A stretch of 64,000 bases of DNA. Origin: an uncultured Burkholderiales bacterium (GTDB lineage Bacteria; Pseudomonadota; Gammaproteobacteria; Burkholderiales; Burkholderiaceae_C). The number at the start of each line of letters is the position of its first letter. The first letter of the stretch is position 1. Shown here piece after piece: positions 11,433 to 64,000 of this stretch. Under the pieces are notes generated by a model, which saw only the letters and a program-made list of their open reading frames with translations, was not told where the DNA came from and searched no databases. Where the stretch lies: contig CAITYM010000020.1 of assembly GCA_903896615.1 (NCBI GenBank), positions 1 to 64,000 of the forward strand. Direction: 5' to 3'. The position numbers and the translations under genes were made by a program.

Positions 11433-11443
11433 ATGAGGTTTAA

Positions 11444-12529: not shown

Positions 12530-12683
12530 ACTAAAAATCAAGTTTTATCTCGAAAAATGCTATTTATTAATACTATTTAATTAATTGATCTCTAAAGTTC
12601 GGTTTACTAGTGCCGATCCATTTGACAATCGAACCTCATTTGAGAAATTCATTCGAGGAAATGGCTTAATCGGGGAACTTGAA

Positions 12684-37174: not shown

Positions 37175-39648
37175 TGTCTAACTTCCCTGCAAATAAAGGT
37201 GCCAAGATCTTGTAGAGGATCAGAGCTTTTTTTGAAGTTAACTTCAAAATCACAATTCTGATGATTCCAATTTACGTGTACTTTATTTATGTTTTTTAAA
37301 TCAACAGCGTAGACTTCTCCGCCGTACCCTACGGTGAAAACTTGTTCGTTTGAATTAATCTTTACTTTTGCACCGGTTTGCATAGGTTTTCCGTCCTCTA
37401 AATGTATAGTGAATGTTGCTCCTCTTGAATGCGTAATCGGAAATCGCACTTCGATACCGCTACGGTAATAGGGGACAGCAGTAACTTTAGTTGCTAGAAT
37501 TTTTGCATCCAGTGGTAGGCCTGCTGGATCGATAGATATCTCGTTTCTGTCATAGGCGCGTAAACGCGGTATAAGTGCGTTGCCGTTTATATCAGTTTTT
37601 GCTACAGGCTGGTTGTCCGTTAGAACTGTTAGATTAGAAAAATCCGGTATGCGTGCAACCGCAAAACTTTGATCTAATCTTCTACTCAAGAATACGTCAT
37701 TGCCAAGGGCTGCGATACCACCGTTAATGTCAAGACTTGTTGATGTTAGTCCACTGTTCTGGGCAATAGATGCCGTATAAGTGCCAATATTATTTTGGAG
37801 TGTATAAGTTGCTTGGCTAGTTCCATCGCTACGCGTCTGTAAAAAATAACCATAGCCGTCCCCGCTTGGGATATTCCTTTGTATTGTGCTGGCAAAGTCA
37901 TTCCCATTCCCGTTGTTGGCGCCTCTTTTGGACTGAGAACTAAAACTGGCGCTAGTTGGCCCTCCCAGTGGTATGCTTAACATTGTAAAAAATGTTGTTC
38001 CTGCATCAAGTGTTGCTAAATCCCGTAGTGCGGACAAACTGATTGCTCCCATTCTTCCGAGTGTTACGCTATAGCCAATCGTTACTATTCGCGAGCTGGG
38101 AATATCACGGTTGATCTGGCTTATATAAGCCGCCCCGAAGGATCCAAATTTAGAAGTTGTATAGCTAAGATTACTGGTGATTTGGTTTGTTGGAGAAAAT
38201 TGTGTGGCTACCTGACCAACCTCCGTAAAGCCACTGCTTGCCCATTGTGACCTTACACCCATGCTCCAGGGCTGTGCTAAGCGATCAACACCTAGCACGA
38301 TAAGGGTACCCAAGGGAGACTCTTTATTTGTACTCTTGTAAGTGTTTAACTCACTATTTGGCATCTCTATCGTAGCTATGTAAGGATCGCTAATTTTTTT
38401 ATGACTGGCTGCAATATAAGAGCTGATTGTGCCAATTTGGGGTATGAGGTAATCTCCCCCAATTCCCAAGCTTTGCTGTCCTTGCATAATCTCTATATGG
38501 ACTTCTCCTGTTAAGTCATTGCTCAAGCCTCTTCTATAGTTTTCAGAGGCAAGCCAATTATGGTAGTCATTACTATTTATACCAAAGTTATCCCTTATAA
38601 AACCTAATTCATAGGAGTAATTTTCTAAACCCTTACTTAGTAGGGACTGACTGGCGTAAAAAGGCTGATTAATAATAAGCTCTCTTCCAAAGAGATCGCG
38701 AACCATCAGATTAACTTGTCCAGCACCTGTTACAACTGGAAGATTGCTGATAGCAAATGGGCCTGGGGGAACAATTTGTCGAGATACAAGGGCATTGTTT
38801 ATAAATACATCGACTGTTGACGGCATTACAGCTTGACCAACTGCACTTTGCATAGGATAAGTTCGAAATCCTGGTTGTGTAGCAAAGTTGGTACCAAACT
38901 GAATTCCACCAAACCGAACTGAACGCCCCCACGTACCGGGGGTGCTAATTACGTCCCCGAGCCGCAATGTTCTCATATCTTCCGGTATATCCTGACTCCA
39001 TGTAGTGTCCAGTCTTATTGCACTTGTATTAGTTCCGTAATTTTCAGCCAGAATATTACCCGTCAATACTCCGTTTTCGTTAAAGTATCCAAATTCAAAT
39101 TGTCCAGAGTGTTGCACATAATCCAGAGAATTTACTGTGAATAAATCATAGTTTAAGAATCCACCGGGATTAGATTTCACTGGAGACGGTAAATTCGGAT
39201 AAATAGATGATCGTACAGTTAAATTAAATGCATCAGCTTGAACATGTATTTTTAAGCTTAAATTATGTTCATCATAAATATGTGATTCACCCACAATCGC
39301 GCTCAGTGGATAATAAGTACTATCTTGATATTTAATTCCTGTCTTTCGACTTGGTTCCCGAAAACGCCAGCTAAGTAAATCTTCCTTTTTTAAATAAAAA
39401 TGACCAGTCATATCAACTATTACTACAACAATTTGATTTAACTCCTGATCATTGATATCGATTTCTAGCAAAAGTTCAGTATAAGGCGATTTTAAGTTGC
39501 TTACCTTTTCAGATGGAGATGCAGGCACTTCATAATCATTTGAGTTATCAGATGAAGTAAATGTGCTTGCTAATACGCTTGAAGGATAATTAAGTAATAA
39601 AAACCACGGCAGAACTGCGAGTATGAGATTACGGTTTGTCCAGGACAA
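37171..39648 (-). CDS. Archaic chaperone-usher pilus outer-membrane usher (CsuD-like)
   Basis: 825 residues with a signal peptide (cleaved near VLAS). It contains the usher N-domain (about 30-150), a large beta-barrel (about 170-680) with recurrent Gly/aromatic strands such as LRLGDVISTPGTWGRSVRFGGIQFGTNF and FINNALVSRQIVPPGPFAISNLP, and C-terminal domains. The motif PFAISNLPVVTGAGQVNLMV and the ensuing FYASQSLL are typical of CsuD. It assembles and exports pilus subunits. Overlaps link it to the chaperone gene upstream (20 bp) and the SCPU gene downstream (4 bp). Confidence 0.92.
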   Translation of the reverse strand: MSWTNRNLILAVLPWFLLLNYPSSVLASTFTSSDNSNDYEVPASPSEKVSNLKSPYTELLLEIDINDQELNQIVVVIVDMTGHFYLKKEDLLSWRFREPSRKTGIKYQDSTYYPLSAIVGESHIYDEHNLSLKIHVQADAFNLTVRSSIYPNLPSPVKSNPGGFLNYDLFTVNSLDYVQHSGQFEFGYFNENGVLTGNILAENYGTNTSAIRLDTTWSQDIPEDMRTLRLGDVISTPGTWGRSVRFGGIQFGTNFATQPGFRTYPMQSAVGQAVMPSTVDVFINNALVSRQIVPPGPFAISNLPVVTGAGQVNLMVRDLFGRELIINQPFYASQSLLSKGLENYSYELGFIRDNFGINSNDYHNWLASENYRRGLSNDLTGEVHIEIMQGQQSLGIGGDYLIPQIGTISSYIAASHKKISDPYIATIEMPNSELNTYKSTNKESPLGTLIVLGVDRLAQPWSMGVRSQWASSGFTEVGQVATQFSPTNQITSNLSYTTSKFGSFGAAYISQINRDIPSSRIVTIGYSVTLGRMGAISLSALRDLATLDAGTTFFTMLSIPLGGPTSASFSSQSKRGANNGNGNDFASTIQRNIPSGDGYGYFLQTRSDGTSQATYTLQNNIGTYTASIAQNSGLTSTSLDINGGIAALGNDVFLSRRLDQSFAVARIPDFSNLTVLTDNQPVAKTDINGNALIPRLRAYDRNEISIDPAGLPLDAKILATKVTAVPYYRSGIEVRFPITHSRGATFTIHLEDGKPMQTGAKVKINSNEQVFTVGYGGEVYAVDLKNINKVHVNWNHQNCDFEVNFKKSSDPLQDLGTFICREVRQ

Positions 39649-40396
39649 TTACTTTATCGATGTTCTCAGCATCTGTATAGGCTTTAAGATGCAGGCGCCC
39701 AGCGTTAACTGGTTCAGTATTGTTAGATTTTAGGAGCCAATCGTGGCTTTGCCCAGCGAGTATGTAACTAGATCCTGATTCTGTTGCAATAATTTGCTCG
39801 CTGCCAAGTGTGTATAAAGAAAAATCAGATATTTGAACGTGAGCATCACCATCATTGCGTAATTCGACTTTAACCATATTTTCTGGTGTTGACGATATTT
39901 TCCATGACATTTTTGGAGCAGCATTTCCTTTTCGCGACTGAATGAATACGGGAATTCCAATTCTCATTGCCAATTTGACACCAGATTCATTCGTTGCAGT
40001 TGCTTCTGGTAATTCCTGTAAATTTACCCGGTATGCAAGCTCTTTAGTTGCATCTGCCGGTATACGTAATGTCATACGAATGAGTTGAGTAGACTTGGGG
40101 GCAATCGTTATGATGGGAGGTGATATGAGGAGATCCCTCGTCGGCATAAATATATCTTTACCATCTACTTGTGACCACGAAACAGCTTGAATTTGAACTG
40201 TTGTAGGTTGGTCTGTATCATTTGTAAAAGTTAAAGCAGCTGTTTGTTTTGTAGGGGTAAGTTCAATCCGAATTGGATCAATGCTCCAGCCTGCTGCTTG
40301 AACTGAGTTTGGAAGTACAAATGCTAAGATGCAAATTATTGAGTAAAGCGTTTTGAACTTTAGTTGATTTAGTTTTATATTCACTGGTATATCCAT
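39629..40396 (-). CDS. Pilus periplasmic chaperone (CsuC-like)
   Basis: 255 residues with a signal peptide (to about residue 34, SVQA). Pilus-chaperone fold: the N-terminal strand WSIDPIRIELTPTKQTAALTFTND, PTTVQIQAVSW, the proline/threonine motif LLISPPIITIAPKSTQLIRMTLR, and the VNLQELP-type region. It caps SCPU subunits by donor-strand complementation and hands them to the usher. It starts one base after the first SCPU gene's stop and overlaps the usher gene by 20 bp. Confidence 0.9.
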   Translation of the reverse strand: MDIPVNIKLNQLKFKTLYSIICILAFVLPNSVQAAGWSIDPIRIELTPTKQTAALTFTNDTDQPTTVQIQAVSWSQVDGKDIFMPTRDLLISPPIITIAPKSTQLIRMTLRIPADATKELAYRVNLQELPEATATNESGVKLAMRIGIPVFIQSRKGNAAPKMSWKISSTPENMVKVELRNDGDAHVQISDFSLYTLGSEQIIATESGSSYILAGQSHDWLLKSNNTEPVNAGRLHLKAYTDAENIDKVIVLDKP

Positions 40397-40397
40397 T

Positions 40398-40937
40398 TTA
40401 AAAATTGATCGTCGCTATGACGGTGTCTGCATAAGTATCAGCCGCAACATCTTGCCCGCCCGAAATAGTTCCGCAAACGTTATATACCCTTGCAACTCTC
40501 GATGTTGAGTTCGTCAGAGTAAACATACCTACACCTGTATTTGTCCAGAGTGTTGTTCCTGGAAAAGTGCAAACTGCAAGGGCTGCAGTGCTACTTGGTT
40601 GGTAAATCGAATAAGAAAGTAAATTTGAATTGACTGCACCAATCATTTGACGTTGAGTGCCGGATACGTGCACTCCATTATCCATGCCTATGGTTAAGCC
40701 GCTAGCGCCCTTAGAACAAGCCACGCTTATTTGTCCTATGCTGTTTAAAGGTGCAGTTGCATTCGTACCTATAGGGTCATATATTGCGAATGCTAAAGCA
40801 GTAGAAGTGCTAACTGAACATACCTGTGTAACTGATGCAGAAACAGGCAGACTTGCAGTTGCAGTAGCGGCTATTGCTAACTTGGAGATAAATAATAATA
40901 GTATTATTTTTATAAATAGGAAATTAATTTTTTTCAT
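40398..40937 (-). CDS. Spore coat protein U domain pilin (major subunit-type)
   Basis: 179 residues from the ATG at 40937. This start gives a proper Lys-rich signal peptide, MKKINFLFIKI; a longer start at 40973 would add twelve residues before it. The mature part has VCSVSTSTALAFAIYDPIGTNATAPL and GQISVACSKGASG, with a C-terminal strand DTVIATINF. This matches SCPU-domain pilins of the Csu type. It is first in the four-gene operon, so it is probably the main shaft subunit. Confidence 0.85.
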   Translation of the reverse strand: MKKINFLFIKIILLLFISKLAIAATATASLPVSASVTQVCSVSTSTALAFAIYDPIGTNATAPLNSIGQISVACSKGASGLTIGMDNGVHVSGTQRQMIGAVNSNLLSYSIYQPSSTAALAVCTFPGTTLWTNTGVGMFTLTNSTSRVARVYNVCGTISGGQDVAADTYADTVIATINF

Positions 40938-41031
40938 GATACTTTTATTTTTGCCAAATACAGATGCTCGCATTAAATTAGTAATTCATCTGTTCGTTTG
41001 CATACGAACAATCATTATGAATATTTTTGAT

Positions 41032-44000
41032 CTATTTAGTATTAGGGAGTACTTCCAATGTACCATTTACATACTTTATTACGTAGTTGGCTGAGTTGAA
41101 AGTTCCACCCGTCGCAATTCCAGGTGTGATTGCATATGGGCTTCCTTCAACTGTTGCACCTTGAGAAGAACCAGGGCTTGATTCTGATATCGCACCTACT
41201 GTATCCCCGTTAACCAATCCATTCATAGTAAATGCAGTTAAAACCATCGTTGTACCAAATGGTTTCCAGGCATCGGCAACTGTGATCAGTAGACCAATCG
41301 GTTGCACGACCAATAATCCATTTACGTATTGAATTTTGTAGTTTCTTGGATCAAAACTCCCACCAGATGCATTACTTGGTGTAATGAGATACGGACTCAT
41401 AGATACCCCAGCTGATGATGAAACTCCAGAGCTCGTTAGCGTTACGAACTCGATAGTCTCGTTGTTCATCAGTCCAGATTGTGTAAATGCTGATAAAACT
41501 GCAGTTTGGCCAAAGTTTTTACTAAAATTTGATGCCGTCACGGTTAGTGGTGCAGTTTCGATATTTGCAGTTGTACTAGCGCTTGAACTAATGCTGTAAT
41601 TTGAAGAGTCTGCACCTGTTAATGCTACTCCTGAGACACTAATTGATTTACCAATCCCTACATTTGCATCGCTAAAAGTACTGAATTTATAAGTGGCAAT
41701 TACTGTATCCCCAGTGATGACTTGGTCTGTGAGAAATACCGAAGCAGAAGTTGTTCCGTCATATGTCTTATTAGCTGCTACTGCTGTGATAGTAAGTGGT
41801 TTTGGAGTGATAGTTGCTGAAGTACTGCCGTTAGGTGTGAATAGTGCATAATTTGAAGCATTTGAGCCAATTAGGCTATACCCGCTATAGATTACGGTCT
41901 TTGCTATACCGGTGTTTTTGTCATTAAAATTTGCCTGTCCAGGGAGTAAATTAACGTTTCCTCCTACACTTGGATTACCATTTAATTGCAGTGAGGCAGA
42001 AGTTGTTCCGTCATAAACTTTATTACTTCCAACAGCATATACCCAAGCTTTTGCATCAGCTAAGGCTGGATATAAAGCTATGTCAGCGGATGTAGCGGCG
42101 TACCCGTCCGGATTAAACCGAATCATAAGCTGTGGAGACGCTACAGCGCCAAATAATGATACTGTGCCTGAGCTAATTCCAGGGCCTGTACCGGCAAGTC
42201 CAGAGACTAATTGAATGGAGGATCCCGCCGGACTAGCCGTAATAGCAGAGTTAATGCTTATATTTCTCCCTGCGTTTAGTGCTATCTGAGTTGTAGCGGC
42301 TCCTGCCGTAATTGCTGCTGTAGTTGAAGTAGTAATATCACGTCCCGCGGTTAAATTAACCGCTGAAGATGCAGCTACGGCTATAATTTCAGCATTAGTA
42401 GCAATATCGAGTCCAGCTTTCACGTTAACTGTTGTACTCTGCGCTGTTGCGGTGATTGCTCCGCCAATGGATACGTCATTACCTGCAGTAATTGCAATTG
42501 ATGAATTAGCTGCAACAGCGTGTATGGGCGCAACAGAAGTCACATTTTGACCGGCTGTTACAATAATAGAAGTATTTGCCGCTGTGCCGGTAATACCAGA
42601 GTTAATATTTACATTGTTACCAGCACTCAACTGCAAACTAGCAACAGCTCCAATACTTGAAATAGTAGAATTTACGTCTATATCATGTCCAGCTATTAAG
42701 GAGAGGCTTGCGCCAGCTGTATTGGCTGTTATTGCACTATTTACTACAACATCGTGTATTGCATTAAGTGTTAAAGTCGTTGCTCCAGCCCAATTAATAG
42801 GTTGATTGACTTGTATATCTCCCAAATTCCCTGCATGTCCGTTACTACTTAAGACGGTGATATTTGACGAAAGTAGATTGTTGACGAGAATTGCGCTTGT
42901 AATATCGCCACCATTTAGTACTGAATCGATAACAAAATTATTAGGATCAATGATCCAATTACCTACCAATCCTTTAGTTGATAACGTATTGACTACTGCT
43001 GAGCCACTTACGGTAAGTTTATTTCCAGACGTCTCTATTAATCCACCGCTCCCCCCTTGTGTTCCGCCTTGTGCAAAGATCGTTCCAGTTATATTCGTTT
43101 GACTTGAAGGATTGGCTAAATCTGAAATGATCAATACTGTGCCACCATTAGAATTATTCTGTGATGCAGCGTCAGCTCTTAGTGAGCCGCCTACATTGAT
43201 AGATTGAGAGGCAAGTAATTCGATAACTCCTCCATTACTTGTGATTCCGCTTGCGTCCAAGACTCCTGTATTTCCAATGATTCCAGCTTGTATTTGATGA
43301 GCAGATTGTGCCGACAAAATGATAAGCCCACCAGGTGCTAAAACAGCACCTCCATTTGTAACTAAGGCATCAATCAATCCTGGACTAACAATAATTGAGC
43401 TCAAAGTGCTGCCAGCTAATGTGAGTGAGTATTGATTGCCAGAGGCCATTACTACGGTACCCATTTGTGCCACAATGACTCCGTTATTACGGACATTAGG
43501 TGCTAAAAGGGCAATATATCCTCCAATCTTGGATTGAAGATTTCCATCATTTACTACGCTTGATGGAGTACTGTTACCATTGAAATTTGAAAGACCAGCA
43601 AGAAAATCGTGCGAAGAAATAGTATTGGTAGTTGCGACAAGTCCACCAACATTAACACTGGCGCTTGGTGAAAAATAAATTCCATTTGAGTTAGTGATAA
43701 ACAGTTGACCATTAGAGTTTAAATGTCCAAAAATTTGTGTAGGATTTGAGCTAAGCACTTGGTTAAGTAGAATGCTATTTCCAGTAGGTTGTAATACATT
43801 TACAGTCGCTAAGCTTCCAATATTAAAACTTTGCCAATCGATAGCTGCTCGATCAGTGGATTGATAAATTGACATAACCGAATTAGACTGTGTAACAGCT
43901 ACTAGACCAGAGATAACATTACTATTAAACGGTAGTTGATTAGGAATTGGGGGTGCTGCAACGGCATTAGTTGAGATGATTAATATTAGAAATAAAAGAT

Positions 44001-44040
44001 ATGGTTTGATAGGTGTATACATGTAAGTAGATAGTCCCAT
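41032..44040 (-). CDS. TpsA-type exoprotein with beta-helix repeats and MBG/YDG-like domains
   Basis: 1002 residues, a two-partner-secretion adhesin. After the signal (about 1-29) the TPS domain shows VTQSNSVMSIYQSTDRAAIDWQSFNIGS and NPTQIFGHLNSNGQLFITNSNGIYF, the filamentous-haemagglutinin N-terminal pattern, with NSNG in place of the common NPNG. Residues about 431-615 form about eight units of 23 residues. Residues about 660-1000 hold YDG (VYDGTTSAS, TYDGTTSAS) and MBG-like repeats (SNFSKNFGQTAVLSAF, DAWKPFGTTMVLTAF). It is probably exported by the TpsB encoded two bases upstream, and acts in adhesion or biofilm. The C-terminus is not a toxin domain. Confidence 0.9.
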   Translation of the reverse strand: MGLSTYMYTPIKPYLLFLILIISTNAVAAPPIPNQLPFNSNVISGLVAVTQSNSVMSIYQSTDRAAIDWQSFNIGSLATVNVLQPTGNSILLNQVLSSNPTQIFGHLNSNGQLFITNSNGIYFSPSASVNVGGLVATTNTISSHDFLAGLSNFNGNSTPSSVVNDGNLQSKIGGYIALLAPNVRNNGVIVAQMGTVVMASGNQYSLTLAGSTLSSIIVSPGLIDALVTNGGAVLAPGGLIILSAQSAHQIQAGIIGNTGVLDASGITSNGGVIELLASQSINVGGSLRADAASQNNSNGGTVLIISDLANPSSQTNITGTIFAQGGTQGGSGGLIETSGNKLTVSGSAVVNTLSTKGLVGNWIIDPNNFVIDSVLNGGDITSAILVNNLLSSNITVLSSNGHAGNLGDIQVNQPINWAGATTLTLNAIHDVVVNSAITANTAGASLSLIAGHDIDVNSTISSIGAVASLQLSAGNNVNINSGITGTAANTSIIVTAGQNVTSVAPIHAVAANSSIAITAGNDVSIGGAITATAQSTTVNVKAGLDIATNAEIIAVAASSAVNLTAGRDITTSTTAAITAGAATTQIALNAGRNISINSAITASPAGSSIQLVSGLAGTGPGISSGTVSLFGAVASPQLMIRFNPDGYAATSADIALYPALADAKAWVYAVGSNKVYDGTTSASLQLNGNPSVGGNVNLLPGQANFNDKNTGIAKTVIYSGYSLIGSNASNYALFTPNGSTSATITPKPLTITAVAANKTYDGTTSASVFLTDQVITGDTVIATYKFSTFSDANVGIGKSISVSGVALTGADSSNYSISSSASTTANIETAPLTVTASNFSKNFGQTAVLSAFTQSGLMNNETIEFVTLTSSGVSSSAGVSMSPYLITPSNASGGSFDPRNYKIQYVNGLLVVQPIGLLITVADAWKPFGTTMVLTAFTMNGLVNGDTVGAISESSPGSSQGATVEGSPYAITPGIATGGTFNSANYVIKYVNGTLEVLPNTK
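42196..42750 (-). repeat. In-frame 69-bp coding repeats within the TpsA gene
   Basis: About eight tandem units of 23 residues, each ending in an L/V-x-AG-x-(D/N)-(I/V) step: for example LIAGHDI, LSAGNNV, VTAGQNV, ITAGNDV, VKAGLDI, LTAGRDI, LNAGRNI. They form an extended beta-helix. Units differ in sequence, so the array looks old rather than recently expanded. Confidence 0.85.
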
Positions 44041-44042
44041 AA

Positions 44043-45743
44043 TTAATAGCTAAGGCTACTAGAAATCCAAAATTCATAGCTGCCACTAGTGCCGTTTTGA
44101 TAAGTACCTTTAGAGGTGGGGTTGGGGTTAATGCCGATTCGCTTTGCCCAAGACATTTTTAGATCTAACTTCGGCATTGGTACCCATTCAAGAGAAAGAC
44201 CGTCTCCTTTCATATCAAAGCTGTTATGCGAAGTCGATCCCTCAAAATTATTATCAACATTAATCTGTACGTGCCCATAATCATAAAATAGGGATAAGAT
44301 GGTATTGAACGGTAAAGATTTACGTAATTCCATTGTTCCCAGTTGACCTTGACTCCCCGCGCCTTCATTGGTTGGAAACGCTCTAACTCCACCTATACCT
44401 CCTAGGTAAAATAATTCCGAAGCATCTAAATTTCTATTCGATATTTGCCCGCTTATATTTCCGAATAATGTAAATCCGGGTGTTAATGATTGATTACGGT
44501 TGGCAACATAACGGATTTTTGTAAAGTTACCCTGAGCATTATTTGTCATTGCAACCGCCGGTTGATTTACAGATCCGGACAGATCGGTGCTGCCGTTAAT
44601 GAGTGATAGGCTAATGCTGTTTGTTCCTGATCCGTTAAAATGATCAATTGAAGAAAAATATACAGAACTTGAAAGATCTGTGACTGAATACTGATTAATT
44701 AAGCCTTGTTGCGAGTTGTTATTACTAAATGTTCGGTAATCTAGATTAATACCTAAGTACAAGTTGAGTGCAATTGTGCGAATTATTGGGTATGTTGATT
44801 CAATGCCATTTGTAATAGCTGTGCCAGTTGCATCAATTGCTTGAAATTGGGATCCAACCAAGTGATATGACATGGCTGAGGTACTTAATCCAATCCGAAG
44901 CCCGTTATCACCGAACGGAAGTGTGTATCTTAAATGTCCATAGTTACTACCTTCGGAATTTAAAAAGTCACCCGTCAATGCGTCGCCAGTAGTAAAAGGA
45001 TTATTTATACCAAGGCTACCAATAATTCGGTTTGCTCCAATTGAAACTGGATTGGCGTTGTCTACAAGAATTGTGAAATAACCCGGATTCACCTCAGTAA
45101 TATTTGCCACTAAATCTGTTGTTAGTGGTGTTGAGCTTTTTCGTAAAGAGGCATTAATTCCAATACCAGGTAAGTCTCCTGTTAGTAATATGCTGCGTTC
45201 TAGTTGTTTGAGGTCAATAAGTTTGCCTGGTATCTGTAAAAAACTAATCGTATCAATTACTTTTTGAGGATTCAAATGAAGGTATTGATTATCAATTAAA
45301 ACTTCACCCCATTTTGATTCCTCAATTTGGATATACAAAGTTTCATCTAAGATCCTCTGGGGAGGAATTAATACCCGTGCTAACCCCCCGGAGAGACGAT
45401 ATTGGTTCTCAATTGAAAAAGTCAATACTTGTAATTGATTAAAAGAAATTACTTTTTGCAGATAATCATTAATTACTAAATTAATTTGATCATTAGAAAG
45501 CAGGGTATTGCCAGAAAATATAATCTTTTTAACTGAAAAATGAATATCATCTGGAACTGGTGTTTCATTAGGCAGGGGTAGGGAGCGCTCTTGCGTAGGT
45601 ATATTGGGAATGCGCTGAAAGCCGTTTTCAATATTTTGTTGGATTGATCCGGAATTAGGGATTTGTGCATAAGTTCCAGTTGTATATAAAAATGTACTTA
45701 AAAATATATTTAATATAAAAAATTTAGAAAATAGTAATTTCAT
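44043..45743 (-). CDS. TpsB outer-membrane transporter (ShlB/FhaC/HecB family)
   Basis: 566 residues. Signal peptide (to about 26), then POTRA-type domains with FSVKKIIFSGNTLLSNDQINLVINDYL (about 70-95), and a C-terminal Omp85-type 16-strand barrel (about 210-566) with ALTGDFLNSEGSNYGHLRYTLPFG, LGGIGGVRAFPTNEG (the conserved loop L6 VRG/Y-like motif as VRAF) and a final FWISSSLSY strand. It exports the partner TpsA encoded two bases downstream. Gene order tpsB-tpsA with near-zero spacing indicates translational coupling. Confidence 0.93.
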   Translation of the reverse strand: MKLLFSKFFILNIFLSTFLYTTGTYAQIPNSGSIQQNIENGFQRIPNIPTQERSLPLPNETPVPDDIHFSVKKIIFSGNTLLSNDQINLVINDYLQKVISFNQLQVLTFSIENQYRLSGGLARVLIPPQRILDETLYIQIEESKWGEVLIDNQYLHLNPQKVIDTISFLQIPGKLIDLKQLERSILLTGDLPGIGINASLRKSSTPLTTDLVANITEVNPGYFTILVDNANPVSIGANRIIGSLGINNPFTTGDALTGDFLNSEGSNYGHLRYTLPFGDNGLRIGLSTSAMSYHLVGSQFQAIDATGTAITNGIESTYPIIRTIALNLYLGINLDYRTFSNNNSQQGLINQYSVTDLSSSVYFSSIDHFNGSGTNSISLSLINGSTDLSGSVNQPAVAMTNNAQGNFTKIRYVANRNQSLTPGFTLFGNISGQISNRNLDASELFYLGGIGGVRAFPTNEGAGSQGQLGTMELRKSLPFNTILSLFYDYGHVQINVDNNFEGSTSHNSFDMKGDGLSLEWVPMPKLDLKMSWAKRIGINPNPTSKGTYQNGTSGSYEFWISSSLSY

Positions 45744-57344: not shown

Positions 57345-58568
57345 TTAAAACACTGGGCTTATGAATATTTTTTTAGGGACTTGATCAGATGAAGAGTTTG
57401 AATTGCTTTTCAAGGATTCAGACTCCATGCGCGCTTTTCTTAGTTGCTCTTCAAGATTATTCCTGGACTGGGTCTCAATCTTCAGCCTTTCCTCCGTAGC
57501 CGCAAGCACTTTGTCTTTTTCTCGCTTCTCTTTCTCGAGTCGATCAAGTTCTTTTTGTTTTAATGCATCTGCTTGTTTTAGAAGTGCTTCGTTTTCAGAC
57601 TGTTTGGAAGAATCTTGATTTTGACGCAAGTTTGCTGAAGCCTGGTTTTGTAACGTATCAATCATTTTTTTAGCGACTGTTACGAAAGATCCGTTTGGAA
57701 ATTGATTTATGTATCCTTGGTAATCCTCAATTTTTGAAGAAGTAAGGACGGATTCCCAAATTGCTATTTCAGTTAAAAGTTTTGTTTTTTCATTTTCTTG
57801 CTCTTGGCAGCCACCAAAACAGAAGTCACCTTCTAAACTACCCTCAGACCAGGGTTCTTGTCTGCCCTTGGATTTGTTTTTTACGGAGGACACCATTTGC
57901 TTTAACACTTGCTCAATGGGCTTGTGTATATCCATCAATTTGATTAGTTCTTCAGTGTAAAGTCCATTCCTTCCATCGCCGTCTTGAGCAACACTACCAG
58001 GCCTTGTCGAATAAGCTATTAATGTTCCAGATGGAGAATTTACCTTTGCCAGTCCTGCTGATAAAGAACGTGTTTTTCTTTCAAAAGGGTTATTTCGGCA
58101 AGCATCTAAGATAACAATGTTGGTGCTTGTTTTAGCTTCCTCTAGAATGTCCATCAACTGGTGTAGCGCTAAGCTTTGAATTGGAATATCTTCTTCAGAG
58201 GCGATATCAGCATCAACTACTGGGAAATAATTTTCTCCCCTCATTTGAAGGCCATGGCCAGCATAAAAAACTAGGGCAATAGAGCCGGGAGTGAGTTTTG
58301 ATTTGAATTCTCGGAGCATCGAGCCCACTTGCATAATTTTTAGGTTTTCTCTATAGACAACATCAAAGCCTTGTTGTTTGAGCTTTGCTGCAAAATCTTT
58401 TGAATCGTTCGTGGGATTTTTTAAGGGTGAAAGTTGATAGTTTGCATTACCAATTACTAAAGCGATTAATTTTTGCGGAGTGGTTGTCGTATTTTCTTGC
58501 TGTGCTGCAAACGAATCGTAACTAGTTAGAGTAAGAGCAAGGGAGATGATTCTTATAAATTTTTTCAT
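57345..58568 (-). CDS. Secreted caspase-family protein with C-terminal coiled coil
   Basis: 407 residues. Signal peptide MKKFIRIISLALTLTS..., cleaved near AFAA, so the protein is periplasmic or exported. The caspase-like (peptidase C14) domain (about 33-245) carries the catalytic dyad His105 in FYAGHG and Cys157 in LDACRNN. The C-terminal about 100 residues are a Glu/Lys/Leu-rich coiled coil (about 310-395) that may mediate assembly. The activating processing site is not visible. It is oppositely oriented to the second caspase of the window. Function of such exported caspases is not known to me. Confidence 0.9.
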   Translation of the reverse strand: MKKFIRIISLALTLTSYDSFAAQQENTTTTPQKLIALVIGNANYQLSPLKNPTNDSKDFAAKLKQQGFDVVYRENLKIMQVGSMLREFKSKLTPGSIALVFYAGHGLQMRGENYFPVVDADIASEEDIPIQSLALHQLMDILEEAKTSTNIVILDACRNNPFERKTRSLSAGLAKVNSPSGTLIAYSTRPGSVAQDGDGRNGLYTEELIKLMDIHKPIEQVLKQMVSSVKNKSKGRQEPWSEGSLEGDFCFGGCQEQENEKTKLLTEIAIWESVLTSSKIEDYQGYINQFPNGSFVTVAKKMIDTLQNQASANLRQNQDSSKQSENEALLKQADALKQKELDRLEKEKREKDKVLAATEERLKIETQSRNNLEEQLRKARMESESLKSNSNSSSDQVPKKIFISPVF

Positions 58569-58803
58569 TGGTTATTGTGTATTTATAAATACCTCGTAAA
58601 CTTCCTTATCATTTTAACAAAATTAAACTTTAATTAATGGATAACAATTAATTCACCATACATAAATAATATTTTGTAATGATAAATAATACATGTAGTC
58701 AATTGGTTTAATATAATTCAACTATTTATTCTTGTATGAACAGTTTTAGGTAATTTTTGTCCCACCCATTTGTTTGCGCATTTAGCAAAGAAAATGAATT
58801 TAA

Positions 58804-59421
58804 TTAAAACTTTCTTACTAACTCCGTAATTTTGCAGTCTCCTACTCCCTTTGCTTTTGACTTGGTAATCATCTTTTTGAGGTAGCTTGATACGCCTGTT
58901 GACTCGTAGGTGAACGTGCCATTTAAGGAATTGATACTGAAATCATATCCATCATAAGTGAAGTTGATTTTTGTGTATTTATCTACTGGAAAAACCTCAT
59001 CGCCTTCGACAAATACTTTACGTAGTTTACCGATCTCATCTCTTTCGATATCGATTTGGGTGCTCATACCATCTGCGAAACAGGTTAAATGGTTTTTAGA
59101 GGGTTTATTTGAATTATCTGATTGTTGGTTTGCAATCTCCGTAATTAGAGTAAATTCAGAGGCTGGAAAACTTTTCACGCCGGAGCCGTCAATCATCTCT
59201 AATTTAACTTGCTCTCCTTCTCTGGACCAACATGCCTCAATTTTCTTATTGCCTGAAGCGTAAGTTGCATTACCTATTGGTTTTATACATGCGGCGTCAT
59301 TAGTTGTTACGAGTTCATTACTACCATTTGGATTTTTAAAAATGGCAGCTGACATCTTTTCCGCGTAAGTAAAACTAATTAAAAGTAACGATATTACAAA
59401 GCCAACCACATATTTAGTCAT
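58804..59421 (-). CDS. Hypothetical exported protein
   Basis: 205 residues with a typical signal peptide (MTKYVVGFVISLLLISFTYA, cleavage after TYA). The mature part contains four Cys (near residues 45, 64, 114 and 197) that could form disulfides, and no known domain. It sits 235 bp upstream of the caspase gene on the same strand and divergent from the plus-strand envelope operon, so it probably belongs to the same locus. Confidence 0.6.
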   Translation of the reverse strand: MTKYVVGFVISLLLISFTYAEKMSAAIFKNPNGSNELVTTNDAACIKPIGNATYASGNKKIEACWSREGEQVKLEMIDGSGVKSFPASEFTLITEIANQQSDNSNKPSKNHLTCFADGMSTQIDIERDEIGKLRKVFVEGDEVFPVDKYTKINFTYDGYDFSINSLNGTFTYESTGVSSYLKKMITKSKAKGVGDCKITELVRKF

Positions 59422-59768
59422 TTTGATATCCTTGATCGAGTAAGTTGAATTCTATAGCCAACCTTGATAGGGAAGAGTTCTGATAGCGGGTAAGGTGTAA
59501 AGATGTTGTTTTTCGTTTCCAAGTCAAGATAATTGGAGGTATGTAAAAATAAGTTGCTATTGGTGAGGGATTATGAGAATTCGGATCGATTTTTAGTACT
59601 TCTTGGCACCCAGTTACAGAGTTGTAATTGCTATTTAGCCTAATTAAGGATAATTTGAAGTTTTTTTAAGACACATATTTTTTCTTTCTTTTTGGGCCTT
59701 AAAATTACTTATCATAGTTGATAATACCCGGAGTACTTAAATATTAAATATTTGAGAGTTAGTTTTAA
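59422..59768. other. Non-coding region upstream of the caspase operon
   Basis: 347 bp of AT-rich sequence between divergent genes. A perfect six-bp palindrome, TTATCA / TGATAA around TAGT (59709-59724), lies 45 bases before the first plus-strand reading frame and could be an operator. Long T-tracts lie around 59661-59695. No coding frame is supported. Confidence 0.45.
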
Positions 59769-59954
59769 ATGAAATACGTATTCCTCACATTATTGATAAG
59801 TATCATTTGCGTTAGCTCAGACGCTATCGATGTAAATTTACATTTCTTGACTATACCTAGACTTTCTTCTGTTAGGGCTTTTATTTTTTCTACTGTCGTG
59901 AAGTCAGTTTTATCCACCTGCGATTCTGTTTTATCCGGTTTTAAATCTATCTAA
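59769..59954 (+). CDS. Possible small exported peptide
   Basis: 61 codons starting MKYVFLTLLISIICVSSDA, a signal-like hydrophobic N-terminus, ending 11 bp before the lipoprotein gene. It has no match I know, and the only support is the signal-like start and the position at the head of the operon. It may be a short leader or a chance frame. Confidence 0.3.
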   Translation: MKYVFLTLLISIICVSSDAIDVNLHFLTIPRLSSVRAFIFSTVVKSVLSTCDSVLSGFKSI

Positions 59955-59965
59955 AATAATTTTCT

Positions 59966-60469
59966 ATGAAAAAAATAACAAAACTGATTGTTACTGCTTT
60001 AATATTTTCTATTTATGCTTGTAGCTCAAACAACTTAGCTTCTAGAACAAGTGAGACATCAAATCAACTGAGCTTTGTAGATTTGAGCGCATTTGATAAG
60101 GATCTCTCAGCCTCACTTGGTGATAAGTACGAATCTGTAGATGTTGCGTTTTATGAGAAGGTAAGTCCTAATCAATTGCCCGAACGTCTACAAAAATGGA
60201 TGTCATCAGTAGAGCAATCAGGAGGGCGAGTAAATATTGAACCTCCTCCCGGTGAGGTGGCGCCAAAAGATCCATTCACTATTATTAGTCTGATAGCTTC
60301 TGCAATCGGAGGTGCTAAGAACTTTGCAGAATTCAAAAATAACAGAACCTACGAACCCGCCAAAGAAAGGGATGCTGTAATTTCATTGGAGCGAAACGCC
60401 AAAGGAGAGGTTGTTGTGTCTAAGGTACAGTTTGTAAAGCGTCACCTCAAGGATGGTGATAAAAAATGA
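59966..60469 (+). CDS. Lipoprotein of the caspase operon
   Basis: 167 residues. The N-terminus MKKITKLIVTALIFSIYACSS is a lipoprotein signal, with the lipobox Cys at about residue 19. The rest is soluble and charged, without a domain I can name. Its stop overlaps the start of the caspase/DUF4384 gene by four bases (ATGA), so the two are translationally coupled and probably act together at the envelope. Confidence 0.75.
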   Translation: MKKITKLIVTALIFSIYACSSNNLASRTSETSNQLSFVDLSAFDKDLSASLGDKYESVDVAFYEKVSPNQLPERLQKWMSSVEQSGGRVNIEPPPGEVAPKDPFTIISLIASAIGGAKNFAEFKNNRTYEPAKERDAVISLERNAKGEVVVSKVQFVKRHLKDGDKK

Positions 60470-62235
60470 AAGGTATAGGTTTAATATTCCTAATTTGCTC
60501 TTTAAGTTGTCTAGCCCAGCAAGCTCCTAATTCGCTTTCAAACAGACATGCGTTAATTATTGGCGTGTCTGAATATCAAAATCCTCAAATACCGACCTTA
60601 ACTGGTGTTCCTTATGATATGGATAGTGCCAAGAGGATTGCCTTGGCTATGGGGATACCAGAGGGAAATATTGAGTTTTTGAAAAATTCAGATGCAACCA
60701 AAGAAAACATTATTAATCGATTAGAGAAAATGGGAAACTCAGCTTCGGAGGGGGCTCGCGATTTCGTCTATTTTTCTGGACACGGTACTCGCTACCAAGA
60801 TTATTCGGCTGGTGGCTGTGTTGAGGGGCTATTCAGTTACGATGGTCAGGCAATTACCAACCTTGAGTTTGCTGCAGCTACGAAGAAGTTAATTGCAAAT
60901 GCGGACAAGGTCATCACAATGATCGACGCCTGTCACTCGGAAGGGGTTGTGCCGCCTAAGAGCTCAACTAGGTCTATTTCAATTGCTTTGACGCCTAAGT
61001 TTTTTTTGGGAAAAGCAGGTAGTGCAGATAGTGCTTGTGCAAAACCTGCAAATCAGAGAACCCGGGGTTTGATATCAGAAGCTACCAGAATGGGTGCATT
61101 GCAAGAAAATGTGGTTCAAATTACGTCTTCAAGGCCAGATGAGGTTAGTTTTGATGAACCAGGCAAGGGTGGCATTGCAACACAAGCTGTTAGAGATTGT
61201 TTGCTTGGTAGGGGTAAGGATATAGACAATTCGGGTGCGGTCTCCATAGCAGAGGTTCAGCAATGCGCACAAGAAATAATCAATGGAAAATTACAGAATC
61301 AAATTGACTATACGCCTCATCACGTAACTGTTACCGGTAACAGAAACCTGATTCCTGTTCAAAAACCTAAGCCACCAGAACTTATAACAGAAACGCCAAT
61401 TGTCACGTCAACTTCAGCGCAAGTAGTTGTTGGTCAGCAAAATTCAAAAATAGAAGGTCAACCACAGCCTGATAAAAGCCCTAGTCCTGAAAAGCCCGCA
61501 GATAAACCAACAGAGCAAATTGTTGCAAATTCCGCTCAAGGGCAAAGTACATCCGCTTATACCGCCCCAGCTGCTTTGCCTCCTACAAAAATAGAAGATA
61601 ACACATCTGCATTAACCGCTAACCAAAAACCGCAGCATCAGTCATCAATAGCTACATCATCAAATTTAGCGTCTGGACCTAGGCCATTTAAGGATAGGCC
61701 TGTTTCAATGGATAAGCCGTCTCAAATTGAACTTGAGTTAGCATCTATGGCGACCCTCAAGGATATTCAACAGCAGGGAAACCCTAAACGCCTAGTTACA
61801 GTTACATTAAGTAAGGCCAGCTTAAAAATTGGAAGAGATAGTCTCGACTTAACCATAAAATCAAATCATGATGGATTCGTCTATATAGTTTTACTTGGTA
61901 GCGATTCTAAAAGTTTTTACATTCTCTACCCTAATGGTCTAGATCAAAATAATCGAATTCATGCGGGGGAATCTTTGAGGGTTCCCAAATCTGATTGGCA
62001 AGTCTTGGCAAATGGTCCGGTTGGGACCGATAATTTACTCGTTATGGTTTCTGATAGTCCGCGAAAATTAAACGGACTAAATATGGCGTCCCCCACTGCT
62101 TCTGAGCCATTTACTTATGCCTTAAACGACATCGGTGGTAGAGGAGTGTTAATTGATTTCTTAACTGGATCCGGAGTCGATGGAAAATCAGAGAGCTTTG
62201 GATCTACCCTTGTTTCATTGAAGGAGATCAAATGA
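60466..62235 (+). CDS. Exported caspase-family protein with EF-hand-type loop and DUF4384-like domain
   Basis: 589 residues. Signal peptide (to about 18, LAQQ). The caspase domain (about 25-290) has catalytic His106 in YFSGHG and Cys156 in IDACHSEG. Within it, residues 252-263 (DIDNSGAVSIAE) fit the Asp-x-Asp-x-Ser-Gly-x-Val-Ser-x-x-Glu pattern of an EF-hand calcium loop, suggesting calcium dependence. A low-complexity Pro/Gln/Ser/Thr linker (about 300-425) leads to a DUF4384-like domain (about 445-540, with GFVYIVLLGSDSKSFYILYPN). Four-base overlaps with both neighbours indicate coupling. Confidence 0.9.
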   Translation: MKGIGLIFLICSLSCLAQQAPNSLSNRHALIIGVSEYQNPQIPTLTGVPYDMDSAKRIALAMGIPEGNIEFLKNSDATKENIINRLEKMGNSASEGARDFVYFSGHGTRYQDYSAGGCVEGLFSYDGQAITNLEFAAATKKLIANADKVITMIDACHSEGVVPPKSSTRSISIALTPKFFLGKAGSADSACAKPANQRTRGLISEATRMGALQENVVQITSSRPDEVSFDEPGKGGIATQAVRDCLLGRGKDIDNSGAVSIAEVQQCAQEIINGKLQNQIDYTPHHVTVTGNRNLIPVQKPKPPELITETPIVTSTSAQVVVGQQNSKIEGQPQPDKSPSPEKPADKPTEQIVANSAQGQSTSAYTAPAALPPTKIEDNTSALTANQKPQHQSSIATSSNLASGPRPFKDRPVSMDKPSQIELELASMATLKDIQQQGNPKRLVTVTLSKASLKIGRDSLDLTIKSNHDGFVYIVLLGSDSKSFYILYPNGLDQNNRIHAGESLRVPKSDWQVLANGPVGTDNLLVMVSDSPRKLNGLNMASPTASEPFTYALNDIGGRGVLIDFLTGSGVDGKSESFGSTLVSLKEIK

Positions 62236-62747
62236 AAAAAGTACTAGTCTTGTCTAGTTTGTTGATTGGATTTATGACTTTGGCTCAAAACCAAACTGCA
62301 GATAGAGTTGATCAGCCTATGAACTCAGCAAGTATCGATCAATTAGTAGAGAAGCTTGCTCCTGAGCCAGCGGTTAGGACAAGAAGTTTAAGAAACCTTG
62401 CTCCTGCACCTAAAAGTGTCGACTTAGTTATTCAATTTGATTTTGATTCTGCAAAACTACAAGCCGCTAGCAAACCACTATTGAATAATCTAGCAGCTGC
62501 AATGAAAACAGATCGACTTATGCAAATCAGCTTCAAAGTAGAAGGACATACAGACGCTAAGGGTTCTGAATCTTATAACCAACAACTCAGCCAAAAGAGG
62601 GCTGAGTCAGTAGTTACTTATATGGCTGAGCAAGGGATTGATAAATCAAGAATGGAGAGTGTAGGAAAGGGATTTAGTGATTTACTTTATCCAGATCGTC
62701 CTCAGGCTATGGAAAACCGTAGAGTAAGAATTACAACAGTCCAATAA
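62232..62747 (+). CDS. OmpA-domain peptidoglycan-binding protein
   Basis: 171 residues. Signal peptide (to about 21), a short linker, and a C-terminal OmpA/MotB domain (about 65-171): IQFDFDSAKLQAASKPLLNNLA, FKVEGHTDAKGSESYNQQLSQKRAESVVTYM, and ENRRVRITTVQ. The Asp and Arg residues that bind meso-diaminopimelate are conserved (HTDAKG, KRAESV). It should tether the operon's products to peptidoglycan. Its start overlaps the caspase stop, and the next gene begins five bases after its stop. Confidence 0.92.
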   Translation: MKKVLVLSSLLIGFMTLAQNQTADRVDQPMNSASIDQLVEKLAPEPAVRTRSLRNLAPAPKSVDLVIQFDFDSAKLQAASKPLLNNLAAAMKTDRLMQISFKVEGHTDAKGSESYNQQLSQKRAESVVTYMAEQGIDKSRMESVGKGFSDLLYPDRPQAMENRRVRITTVQ

Positions 62748-62752
62748 AAAAT

Positions 62753-63199
62753 ATGAAAAAAATCATTTTCAGCTGTATAGCTTCCTTTGCATTTTTGACC
62801 CACGCCGCACAGCCCTTGATGCTCGTTACGGTAGATGAGATGATTGAGTCCAACAAGGCGCCTCCACTATTTACTGCAAAAGCGATACCCGAAAAAGATG
62901 CGCCTGTCATTCAGATTATCAATCCTAAGATAGCGTCTACTGTTTCTTCTCCAACGCCAGTGGAGATTAAGTTTCAATCAGCTGATCAAAGTACTGTCAA
63001 GCCAGAATCATTTAAGGTTTTGTATGGTACGTTTCAAATAGATATTACTAAAAGAATTTTGAATGTTACAAAAGTAACTTCAGATGGCGTTTTAGTCCAG
63101 GCGGCAAATCTGCCAGCTGGAAAGCATAAATTAATATTAAACATTGAAGATAGCCAAGGCAGGTCGGGTTCACAGGTTGTCGAGTTTGAAGTGAAATAA
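62753..63199 (+). CDS. Exported Ig-like-domain protein, paralogue A
   Basis: 148 residues. Signal peptide (to about 18, THAA). The mature part is one all-beta domain (about 55-148): VIQIINPKIASTVSSPTPVEIKFQSAD, IDITKRI, LPAGKHKLILNIEDSQGRSGSQVVEFEV, with the end motif characteristic of bacterial Ig-like folds. The following gene encodes a clear paralogue. Function unknown; it is likely a structural or ligand-binding partner of the caspase. Confidence 0.7.
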   Translation: MKKIIFSCIASFAFLTHAAQPLMLVTVDEMIESNKAPPLFTAKAIPEKDAPVIQIINPKIASTVSSPTPVEIKFQSADQSTVKPESFKVLYGTFQIDITKRILNVTKVTSDGVLVQAANLPAGKHKLILNIEDSQGRSGSQVVEFEVK

Positions 63200-63231
63200 A
63201 GTTGGTTAACTTTGTATTGCGGAGTTTAAGT

Positions 63232-63663
63232 ATGAAACGTAATTTAATTTACACCCTCACTGTTTTTTTATCAGTTCAAACAGTGATAGCCGGCGAACTT
63301 ATTTCTGATGAAGAAAATCAACTGCCATCTCTCATACCACTTCGAACCCGAAGTATTTCAAGGGGCCCGGGTATAAAGGTGATTTCACCTGATCTGGATG
63401 CTACAACTAAATCGCCTGTCAATATCAAAGTTCAATTTGAAGCGCGAGGGGGATCTAAGATTGATTCATCCTCAGTTAAAGTGATATATTTGAAAAGTCC
63501 GAACATAGATATTACTCAAAGATTGAATACTGGTATTACAGAAAGCGGCATAGATTTTTCAAAGGCCGAAATACCACCTGGAAATCAAAGTTTGCAAGTT
63601 ATTGTGAAAGACAGTGATGGACGTGAAAATACCACTGTCCTTAACTTTACTATTATTAAATAA
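63232..63663 (+). CDS. Exported Ig-like-domain protein, paralogue B
   Basis: 143 residues from the ATG at 63232, with GGAG eight bases upstream; an earlier in-frame ATG at 63202 would add ten residues before the signal peptide. Mature domain: IKVISPDLDATTKSPVNIKVQFEARGG, IDITQRL, IPPGNQSLQVIVKDSDGRENTTVLNFTII. The alignment with paralogue A (ITKRI against ITQRL, LPAGKHKLILNIEDSQGR against IPPGNQSLQVIVKDSDGR) shows tandem duplication. The stop overlaps the next ATG (TAATG). Confidence 0.7.
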   Translation: MKRNLIYTLTVFLSVQTVIAGELISDEENQLPSLIPLRTRSISRGPGIKVISPDLDATTKSPVNIKVQFEARGGSKIDSSSVKVIYLKSPNIDITQRLNTGITESGIDFSKAEIPPGNQSLQVIVKDSDGRENTTVLNFTIIK

Positions 63664-64000
63664 TGAAATGCCCATATTGCTTATCTGAAGTTTTGGATGA
63701 GGCTTCTGTTTGCAGTAATTGCACAAAAGATATTTATTTATTCAAATCGTTAGTCTCTCAAATTGAAGGCTTGCAACACAATCTTAATGAATTTCCAGAC
63801 AGAAAAGCCCTAGAGGCAAAGATCTTTGAACTTGAAGCAATCATTCAAGAGCTTGAGCCACAAAAGTCACAAAATAATATTTCTCAAACCGTAATTGAAT
63901 TTGGACAATTTATCGTAGTTCCGTTGCTATTTTTGCTTTTGGCTCATTGGTCAATAACGATGGTATTTGATGCTAAGCTAATTTATTTAAGGGTGATTTC
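63663..64000 (+). CDS. Zinc-ribbon, coiled-coil membrane protein (partial at window edge)
   Basis: An open frame of at least 112 codons that runs off the right edge. It starts MKCPYC, and with a following CSNC (residues 3-6 and 17-20) forms a four-cysteine zinc ribbon. A helical Glu/Leu-rich segment (about 30-75) suggests a coiled coil. A hydrophobic helix (about 85-102, FIVVPLLFLLLAHWS) is a probable membrane anchor, so the ribbon is likely cytoplasmic. TAATG overlap with paralogue B shows it belongs to the same operon. Family not recognised. Confidence 0.75.
   Translation, partial: MKCPYCLSEVLDEASVCSNCTKDIYLFKSLVSQIEGLQHNLNEFPDRKALEAKIFELEAIIQELEPQKSQNNISQTVIEFGQFIVVPLLFLLLAHWSITMVFDAKLIYLRVI

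Follow-up and report, generated by a model that had tools for sequence, protein, structure and literature searches.

A recurrent gene set around a signal-bearing caspase homologue in Burkholderiales and its possible role in the cell envelope

Described relatives of the gene set

Bacterial caspase homologues and CHAT proteases have mostly been treated as cytosolic proteins, and to our knowledge bacterial caspases have hardly been studied in the cell envelope. Gingipains and clostripain are exported proteases of clan CD that share the caspase fold but belong to different peptidase families, and we know of no accompanying set of OmpA, Ig-like and zinc-ribbon genes for either. Here we describe such a set from an uncultured Burkholderiales bacterium, built around CaspB, a signal-bearing caspase homologue with a C-terminal DUF4384 domain. 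The stretch of DNA analysed, referred to as the window, covers the opening 64 kb of contig CAITYM010000020.1 (C20; 145,780 bases) in a genome of 3.18 Mb and 173 contigs. CaspB is accompanied there by a putative lipoprotein (LipoP), an OmpA-type peptidoglycan anchor (OmpA), two Ig-like paralogues (Ig1 and Ig2), a zinc-ribbon membrane protein (ZnTM), a second caspase homologue (CaspA) and, beyond the window edge, a protease with CHAT and TPR domains (CHAT-TPR, or CHAT).

Prokaryotic metacaspase operons offer a partial precedent. In a survey by Asplund-Samuelsson (2012), peptidase C14 genes likewise accompany OmpA-domain genes in 14 of the 217 operons predicted. Some of the C14 proteins begin with a helix, possibly a signal peptide, and up to 3 C14 genes can share an operon (PMC3501461). 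The accessible parts of that paper describe no gene set like the present one, no export model and no Ig, zinc-ribbon, lipoprotein or CHAT partner, and they place operons with several C14 genes only in Alphaproteobacteria, Bacteroidetes, Cyanobacteria and Deltaproteobacteria. The first-pass annotation of this DNA knew of no named system having this gene set. This holds for the literature searched (most subscription journals lay outside its coverage), in which we found neither a description of the set nor a described member of a class of envelope caspase relays, but it must be tempered by the observation of OmpA in metacaspase operons published in 2012 (PMC3501461).

At the level of the protein, eukaryotic type I metacaspases, such as yeast Mca1 (4f6o), and GSU0716 (3bij) have the p20 fold, the His-Cys dyad and an acidic motif after p20 in common with CaspB, which is unlike them in its signal sequence, its EF-hand-type loop behind the acidic motif and its DUF4384 domain. 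According to the accessible parts of two surveys, DUF4384 has been described on pseudo-orthocaspases of Cyanobacteria (PMC7475262) and of Alphaproteobacteria, as well as with kinases (PMC6426788). The latter survey also found EF-hand motifs on 7 archaeal proteins and Big_7 Ig motifs on 15, so both features were already known in the family. Caspase conflict systems, whose constant components are EACC1 and EACC2, also pair proteases of the caspase fold with partner domains that vary and include CHASE2, as far as the available part of their description goes (PMC8195603). Unlike in those systems, the proteases described here bear signal sequences, and membership in EACC1 was rejected, as the NF047832 model gave scores of 61.1 and 34.8 against a cut-off of 140 bits. 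More distant kin are seen at three loci (L042, L043 and L149) where DUF4384 occurs with OmpA, at times with a two-partner secretion (TPS) exoprotein carrying C14 or with a CHAT-TPR gene, and where a kinase replaces the caspase in front of DUF4384. Kinase-DUF4384 genes near FHA, PP2C and OmpA genes and a TPS-C14 exoprotein were seen in two other Burkholderiales families.

Recurrence and conservation of the gene set

A scan of GTDB contigs with CaspB found 171 relatives, of which 80 were kept; the counts below rest on those 80 named loci, except for a clustering of 91 loci that includes second copies of three loci. Many of the relatives come from records titled Comamonadaceae or one of the genera of that family (Limnohabitans, Rhodoferax, Polaromonas, Hylemonella), and there is also one Nevskiaceae and one Neisseriaceae record. 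The main neighbourhood count used the 39 loci whose flanks reach 6 kb or more in either direction and excluded the 41 short-flank loci. Within 6 kb of CaspB, OmpA is found in 36 of these 39 loci, Ig in 33, another C14 gene in 22, a gene for a CHASE2 protein in 15, ZnTM in 13, CHAT in 12 and LipoP in 10. The same distance applied unfiltered to all 80 gives OmpA 64, Ig 55, C14 38, CHASE2 31, LipoP 25, CHAT 18 and ZnTM 18.

The family hidden Markov models were built from these same loci, and therefore the contrast between DNA near CaspB and DNA far from it, rather than the match itself, serves as the control. In the 642 kb of DNA lying within 5 kb of CaspB and in the 478 kb farther away, respectively, matches numbered 66 and 1 for OmpA, 66 and 0 for Ig, 18 and 0 for ZnTM, 33 and 2 for CHASE2, 21 and 2 for CHAT, 45 and 3 for CaspA-type C14, and 22 and 3 for LipoP. 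Clustering without regard to names (1216 genes from the 91 loci) brings up the same families, with C14 at 86, OmpA at 64, Ig at 50, CHASE2 at 36, LipoP at 29, and ZnTM and CHAT at 21 each. The clusters ranked next are substrate-binding-protein-like (18 of 91) and ABC-ATPase-like (12 of 91) and resemble large transporter families.

ZnTM can also be used as an anchor in place of CaspB. Searched alone in 300 Burkholderiales genomes, it gave 13 matches, ten of them strong; the three weak ones, which cover the zinc ribbon or the N-terminal part alone, were excluded, and two of the ten (G000 and G048) had been in the query alignment. All ten strong matches occur with Ig and a C14 or CHAT gene. Six adjoin CaspB, and the other four (L137 to L140) are without CaspB and each have Ig and CHAT, although in L140 Ig lies on the opposite strand and the CHAT match, at the edge of the contig, is partial; the CHAT N-termini were inspected in L137 and L139. 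Because ZnTM occurs with Ig and CHAT at four loci without CaspB, the operon of the window seems to be composed of two modules, LipoP-CaspB-OmpA-Ig1 and Ig2-ZnTM-CHAT. A congener (G018) and a member of another family (G048) retain both Ig-ZnTM and CaspB-OmpA. Across the class, ZnTM was found in one of 369 genomes, its own alone.

At the level of whole genomes, the p20 and DUF4384 parts of CaspB were both matched in 10 of 61 genomes (its own, 36 congeners and one from each of 24 other families), and the other 8 of the 18 CaspB matches were part-length or weak. Some match to CaspB was obtained in 118 of 300 genomes of the order, mostly weak or part-length. Both parts are found in 13 genomes, in one case split across contigs. 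Among these 13, OmpA lies within about 6 kb in 11, counting a 24-bit piece at a contig end in G246, and a second caspase-clan gene is found in 11. The exceptions are G104, where a piece of CHAT lies 7.7 kb away, and G246, whose contig has none.

CaspB (60466-62235, plus strand, 589 aa) matches the Pfam families C14 (PF00656, 3.4e-18; 66.6 bits against a cut-off of 21.4) and, at residues 453-532 (61822-62061), DUF4384 (PF14326, 3.9e-13). Its profile matches in the PDB are the metacaspase structures 4f6o and 6w8s together with GSU0716 (3bij). The catalytic residues His106 (codon 60781-60783) and Cys156 (codon 60931-60933) are each kept in 80 of 80 relatives. One scan pattern contained SGHGTR, so the His count is partly circular because that pattern held the catalytic His; the Cys was absent from the scan patterns. 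The CaspB motif SRPDEVSFDE aligns with SKDNQTSAD of yeast Mca1, and behind it comes the EF-hand-type loop DIDNSGAVSIAE (residues 252-263; 61219-61254), in which relatives have D at position 1 in 79 of 80, D or N at position 3 in 80 of 80, G at position 6 in 80 of 80 and E or D at position 12 in 80 of 80. In eight close pairs of relatives, the ratio of nonsynonymous to synonymous substitution rates (dN/dS) was 0.035-0.315 over eight families, with not every family represented in each pair and some dS values above 1, which indicates that the eight tested families are under purifying selection in the relatives.

Two of the checks that the first-pass annotation had proposed, a count of the OmpA, Ig-like and zinc-ribbon genes near the caspase as a test for chance grouping, and conservation of the catalytic dyad, thus fall in favour of its suggestion. 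As CaspB is seldom found without OmpA or Ig, and as the dyads are conserved, the comparison supports a system rather than a chance neighbourhood, with CaspB, OmpA and Ig as its core. The roles that the annotation suggested, in envelope stress, signalling or interbacterial defence, are candidates only.

The locus and its components

The nine genes of the locus are flanked by an acetoacetate-decarboxylase-like gene (ending at 57150) and a 3-hydroxybutyrate-dehydrogenase-like gene (67514-68299, minus strand), both named from reading their sequences. In the congener G026, which has no CaspB match, these flanking genes stand next to each other with 23 bp between the called ends, and the neighbouring genes are kept on both sides. 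Since the flanks adjoin there, 57151-67513 (10.4 kb) forms one accessory block, CaspA included. The empty site alone is compatible with either gain or loss of the block. No tRNA was found in the extracted loci L031 or L152, no repeat pair among those listed flanks the block, and its GC content resembles that of the surroundings, so no mark of a means of transfer is seen.

Six plus-strand genes in the window and one beyond it follow each other with junctions ranging from a 4-nt overlap to a 32-nt gap. LipoP and CaspB overlap by 4 nt, CaspB and OmpA by 4 nt, and Ig2 and ZnTM by 1 nt, and OmpA and Ig1 are 5 nt apart. Coordinates thus agree with the plus-strand operon and overlapping junctions of the first-pass annotation (lipoprotein, caspase-DUF4384, OmpA, Ig pair and zinc-ribbon protein), and its two signal-bearing caspases in close proximity are both C14 proteins with the His-Cys dyad intact, their genes lying 1.9 kb apart. 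Its extent of the operon fell short, as the end of ZnTM (64442) and the closing CHAT-TPR gene lay beyond its view. Its domain labels stand by Pfam for C14, DUF4384 and OmpA, but the Ig and zinc-ribbon matches are weak or below cut-off in the window members. Signal-like N-termini were recognised by eye on eight of the nine block proteins, ZnTM being the exception. A promoter and terminator scan gave fewer sites than shuffled sequences (12 versus 30.8 and 6 versus 8.7, respectively).

LipoP (59966-60469, plus strand) represents a new family: Pfam gave nothing for the window member and only scattered weak matches among 25 members. Its lipobox Cys19 is kept in 8 of 8 sequences and in at least 90% of the 25 members. 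Lipoproteins are sorted by their +2 residue, and a residue other than Asp predicts the outer membrane; that of LipoP is not Asp. OmpA (62232-62747, plus strand) has a signal-like N-terminus and matches PF00691 (2.9e-21). Ig1 (62753-63199, plus strand) and Ig2 (plus strand, from an ATG at 63232 or a TTG at 63202 to 63663) are signal-bearing paralogues (phmmer 6e-15). An Ig domain is weak in both, with a best E of 0.11 for Ig1 and no match for Ig2; in their family (A6), Big_13 was matched in 6 of 30 members (best E 0.0012). PDB profile searches gave nothing credible for LipoP or Ig (best E 0.25 and 0.081). Alignments separate two Ig subfamilies, an Ig1 type beside CaspB and OmpA and an Ig2 type beside ZnTM, and an Ig gene lies immediately upstream of all 18 ZnTM genes in the 80 named loci.

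ZnTM (63663-64442, plus strand, covered by the window up to 64000) belongs to a conserved family, and the window member is without a Pfam family above cut-off. Its zinc ribbon scores 16.1 bits against a cut-off of 25, with two CxxC pairs visible among four N-terminal cysteines. The protein also has four to five hydrophobic segments and, as judged by eye, a coiled coil. Elsewhere in the same genome (contig C82), a second locus, L032 (6902-9562 and 10691-12184), has two C14 proteins. One of its C14 genes adjoins a membrane protein that is zinc-ribbon-like by eye, with a sub-threshold match to LprI (20.5 against 22 bits), an arrangement that echoes the pairing of ZnTM with caspases.

CaspA (57345-58568, minus strand, 407 aa) is a signal-bearing C14 homologue (PF00656, 1.8e-34; 119.9 bits against 21.4) divergent from the operon. 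Among 48 CaspA-like proteins the catalytic H is present in 46 and the C in 47, the remainder being gaps. A minus-strand caspase lies upstream of CaspB in 13 of the 80 loci, and in the loci searched the closest relative of CaspA sits within the CaspB operon of L041. CHAT-TPR (64462-67410, plus strand), a signal-bearing caspase-clan protease beyond the window, closes the operon; both domains are found by Pfam (CHAT, PF12770, 7.1e-47; 160.7 bits against 24), and the dyad is kept in 23 of 23 relatives. Over the 61 genomes, CHAT tracks CaspB, being present in 7 of 10 with it and 11 of 51 without it (p=0.005; CHAT matches below 1e-10, shared ancestry ignored). Partner proteases across the loci include C14 alone, Sel1-C14, MORN-C14 and CHAT-TPR, and at least two caspase-clan genes are found in 32 of the 39 full-flank loci, up to a maximum of five (L117). 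CaspA is one of several such exchangeable partner proteases. Local multiplication of a partner protease is seen in L057 (12085-21114) and L091 (6424-15183), which have three CHAT-TPR genes each. The remaining gene of the block, OrfM2 (58804-59421, minus strand), encodes a signal-bearing protein (by eye) with no Pfam match and was rejected as a member of the system, as no relative was found in other loci (110 searched, its own included).

Membrane partners follow the phylogeny of CaspB. In a quick maximum-likelihood tree of 84 CaspB proteins (3 of 87 rows, of at most 350 aa, were omitted), a clade of 35 rows (SH-aLRT 96) holds 18 of 19 ZnTM loci and a clade of 41 rows (SH-aLRT 99) holds 35 of 37 CHASE2 loci. 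ZnTM and CHASE2 occur together at none of the 80 loci. G104 encodes, one gene away from CaspB, a CHASE2 protein that also contains a nucleotide-cyclase domain. Gains and losses on the tree number 13 for CHAT, 18 for LipoP, 10 for ZnTM and 6 for CHASE2, counts that lean high because cut loci were scored as absent. Two records titled Cytophagales (L061) and Bordetella parapertussis (L085) have a CaspB that groups with Burkholderiales rows and are perhaps mislabelled bins of metagenome-assembled genomes.

Candidate mechanism and alternatives

Comparative genomics thus yields the gene set, its conservation, the intact dyads and the accessory block. From these, we give roughly even credence to an accessory system in the envelope that would work as a regulated, possibly calcium-gated relay of proteases and in which both the membrane partners and the partner proteases are exchangeable. 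The envelope location is proposed because the components bear signal-like sequences that predict export. OmpA and the lipoprotein would tether CaspB to the wall and outer membrane, and the membrane partner, either ZnTM or CHASE2, would couple CaspB to the cytoplasm or report its state. Periplasmic calcium, perhaps altered by envelope damage, would gate CaspB through the EF-hand-type loop, and active CaspB would be expected to cut after basic residues, its acidic pocket motif being retained. CaspB might then switch on, or act together with, CaspA and CHAT, which would cut envelope or surface proteins. A stricter form, which we hold only tentatively, is a periplasmic cascade of initiator and executioners in which CaspB, calcium-gated, tethered to wall and outer membrane and linked to an exchangeable partner in the inner membrane, would activate exchangeable C14 or CHAT proteases. 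If the relay is real, the biology of bacterial caspases moves into the envelope, by way of three caspase-clan proteases, a wall anchor and at least two families that Pfam does not cover (LipoP and ZnTM), and an old question, the role of caspase homologues in bacteria, becomes testable. Limnohabitans strain records carry the CaspB locus, so knock-outs may be realistic. Through the EF-hand-type loop, calcium control could be tested directly in a class of enzymes that has been called calcium-independent.

Several observations weigh against the relay. Eukaryotic metacaspases are mostly calcium-dependent, which speaks for the relay, but the orthocaspases tested so far self-process without an activator and are termed calcium-independent in the available part of the same paper (PMC5756287). 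Signal-like N-termini were called by eye and by a crude rule, which in relatives picks out 88 of 110 C14 proteins but also 240 of 661 products of all other genes. The accessory parts are far from constant, as LipoP and ZnTM are absent from most full-flank loci and OmpA is missing from 3 of the 39. CaspB stands alone in 5 of 80 loci, four of them short or cut, and L050, with full flanks, has CaspB without other system genes. Within 300 bp of CaspB, a looser count with cut loci included, OmpA is found in 40 of 80, Ig and CHASE2 in 22 each, LipoP in 10, C14 in 7, ZnTM in 6 and CHAT in 4; these numbers are lower because other system genes often intervene and contigs are cut. LipoP searched alone matched 4 of 300 genomes and in one (G276) lies on a contig other than that of CaspB; the other three have adjoining CaspB-type genes, which in one case score only weakly as CaspB. 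The mutual exclusion of ZnTM and CHASE2 may be due to ancestry alone, each marking one clade. Finally, the CaspB of one relative (L041, 8969-10468) is without the catalytic His and Cys. The three other C14 genes of that operon retain their motifs, and this CaspB is possibly a regulatory pseudo-caspase.

Alternatively, the exported proteases could serve in the maturation of surface proteins, processing or releasing large exoproteins, chiefly TPS proteins, in the manner of the dedicated proteases of FhaB in Bordetella, whose regulated processing is known (PMC8263021, available in part). This would fit the OmpA and DUF4384 genes found with a TPS exoprotein ending in C14 in other Burkholderiales (L042 and L043), the order LipoP-OmpA-CaspB followed by a TpsB transporter and a TPS-C14 exoprotein in G255 (L134), and the four TPS proteins of the present genome, one of them within the window. 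We nevertheless consider it unlikely, since TPS does not track CaspB significantly over the 61 genomes (8 of 10 with CaspB, 26 of 51 without, p=0.16), the 40 families that recur most often in the 91 loci include none of TPS type (a clustering that could miss large multidomain proteins), and the system occurs without a TPS match in G018 and G029. Dependence of the system on TPS was rejected on the same p value. The TPS exoprotein of the window and its TpsB-like transporter (41032-45743, minus strand) lie beside an apparent chaperone-usher cluster (36677-40973).

A conflict or death module, in which envelope damage would unleash several proteases as an envelope-level suicide, anti-predator or anti-phage device, is likewise improbable in our view. 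In its favour, the distribution is patchy, the p20 and DUF4384 parts of CaspB being present in 9 of 37 congeneric genomes (its own included) and 12-13 of 300 of the order, the block has an empty site in a congener, and the partner proteases vary and multiply, as in L057, L091 and L117. Caspases also act as effectors in conflict systems, according to the accessible part of PMC8195603. However, a known anti-phage system was rejected: when eight of the nine block genes were given to PADLOC (ZnTM truncated at the window edge and CHAT left out), no specific multi-gene model was completed, and the hits were a generic caspase model, OmpA/MotB cross-matches and otherwise weak matches. The Pfam matches of the block include no NTPase sensor domain, and purifying selection equally fits steady use.

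A branch of threonine-phosphorylation regulators of the type associated with type VI secretion systems (T6SS), in which a Ser/Thr kinase carries DUF4384 and is accompanied by FHA, PP2C and OmpA proteins, is very unlikely. L042 and L043 do combine kinase-DUF4384, an FHA protein with T6SS_FHA_C, OmpA-like genes and PP2C (by Pfam in L042 and by eye in L043), and in a Caballeronia T6SS cluster (L149, 1-10510) a kinase-DUF4384 gene has beside it a CHAT-TPR gene divergent from tssJ, but kinase, phosphatase and FHA have no Pfam match in the nine genes of the block, and membership was rejected, leaving shared domains alone. Least credible is a chance neighbourhood of unrelated exported genes, which might account for the variable gene order and for OrfM2 but is refuted for CaspB, OmpA, Ig and ZnTM by the near/far control and the ZnTM-anchored search, and opposed by the arrangement retained in G018 and G048.

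Kin beyond the order also speak for the relay. Genes on a plasmid of Deinococcus sp. NW-56 (L150, 2751-12753) run in the order NACHT, C14-DUF4384, hypothetical protein, SLH protein, PKD lipoprotein, TPR-annotated protein and WD40 protein. The last six have signal-like N-termini, and the WD40 protein is annotated as a caspase; its gene extends beyond the stretch covered, in which Pfam finds only WD40. Though a single case, the recurrence in a different phylum of caspase-DUF4384 together with a wall anchor and an Ig-like protein gives a hint of function. Closer to home, the neighbours of CaspB in L131 (G300, 11392-12625) include two small proteins that contain cysteine motifs and a hydrophobic segment and have no clear Pfam match, and the cluster continues with a Tubulin_2 protein, a DUF4384 protein and OmpA.

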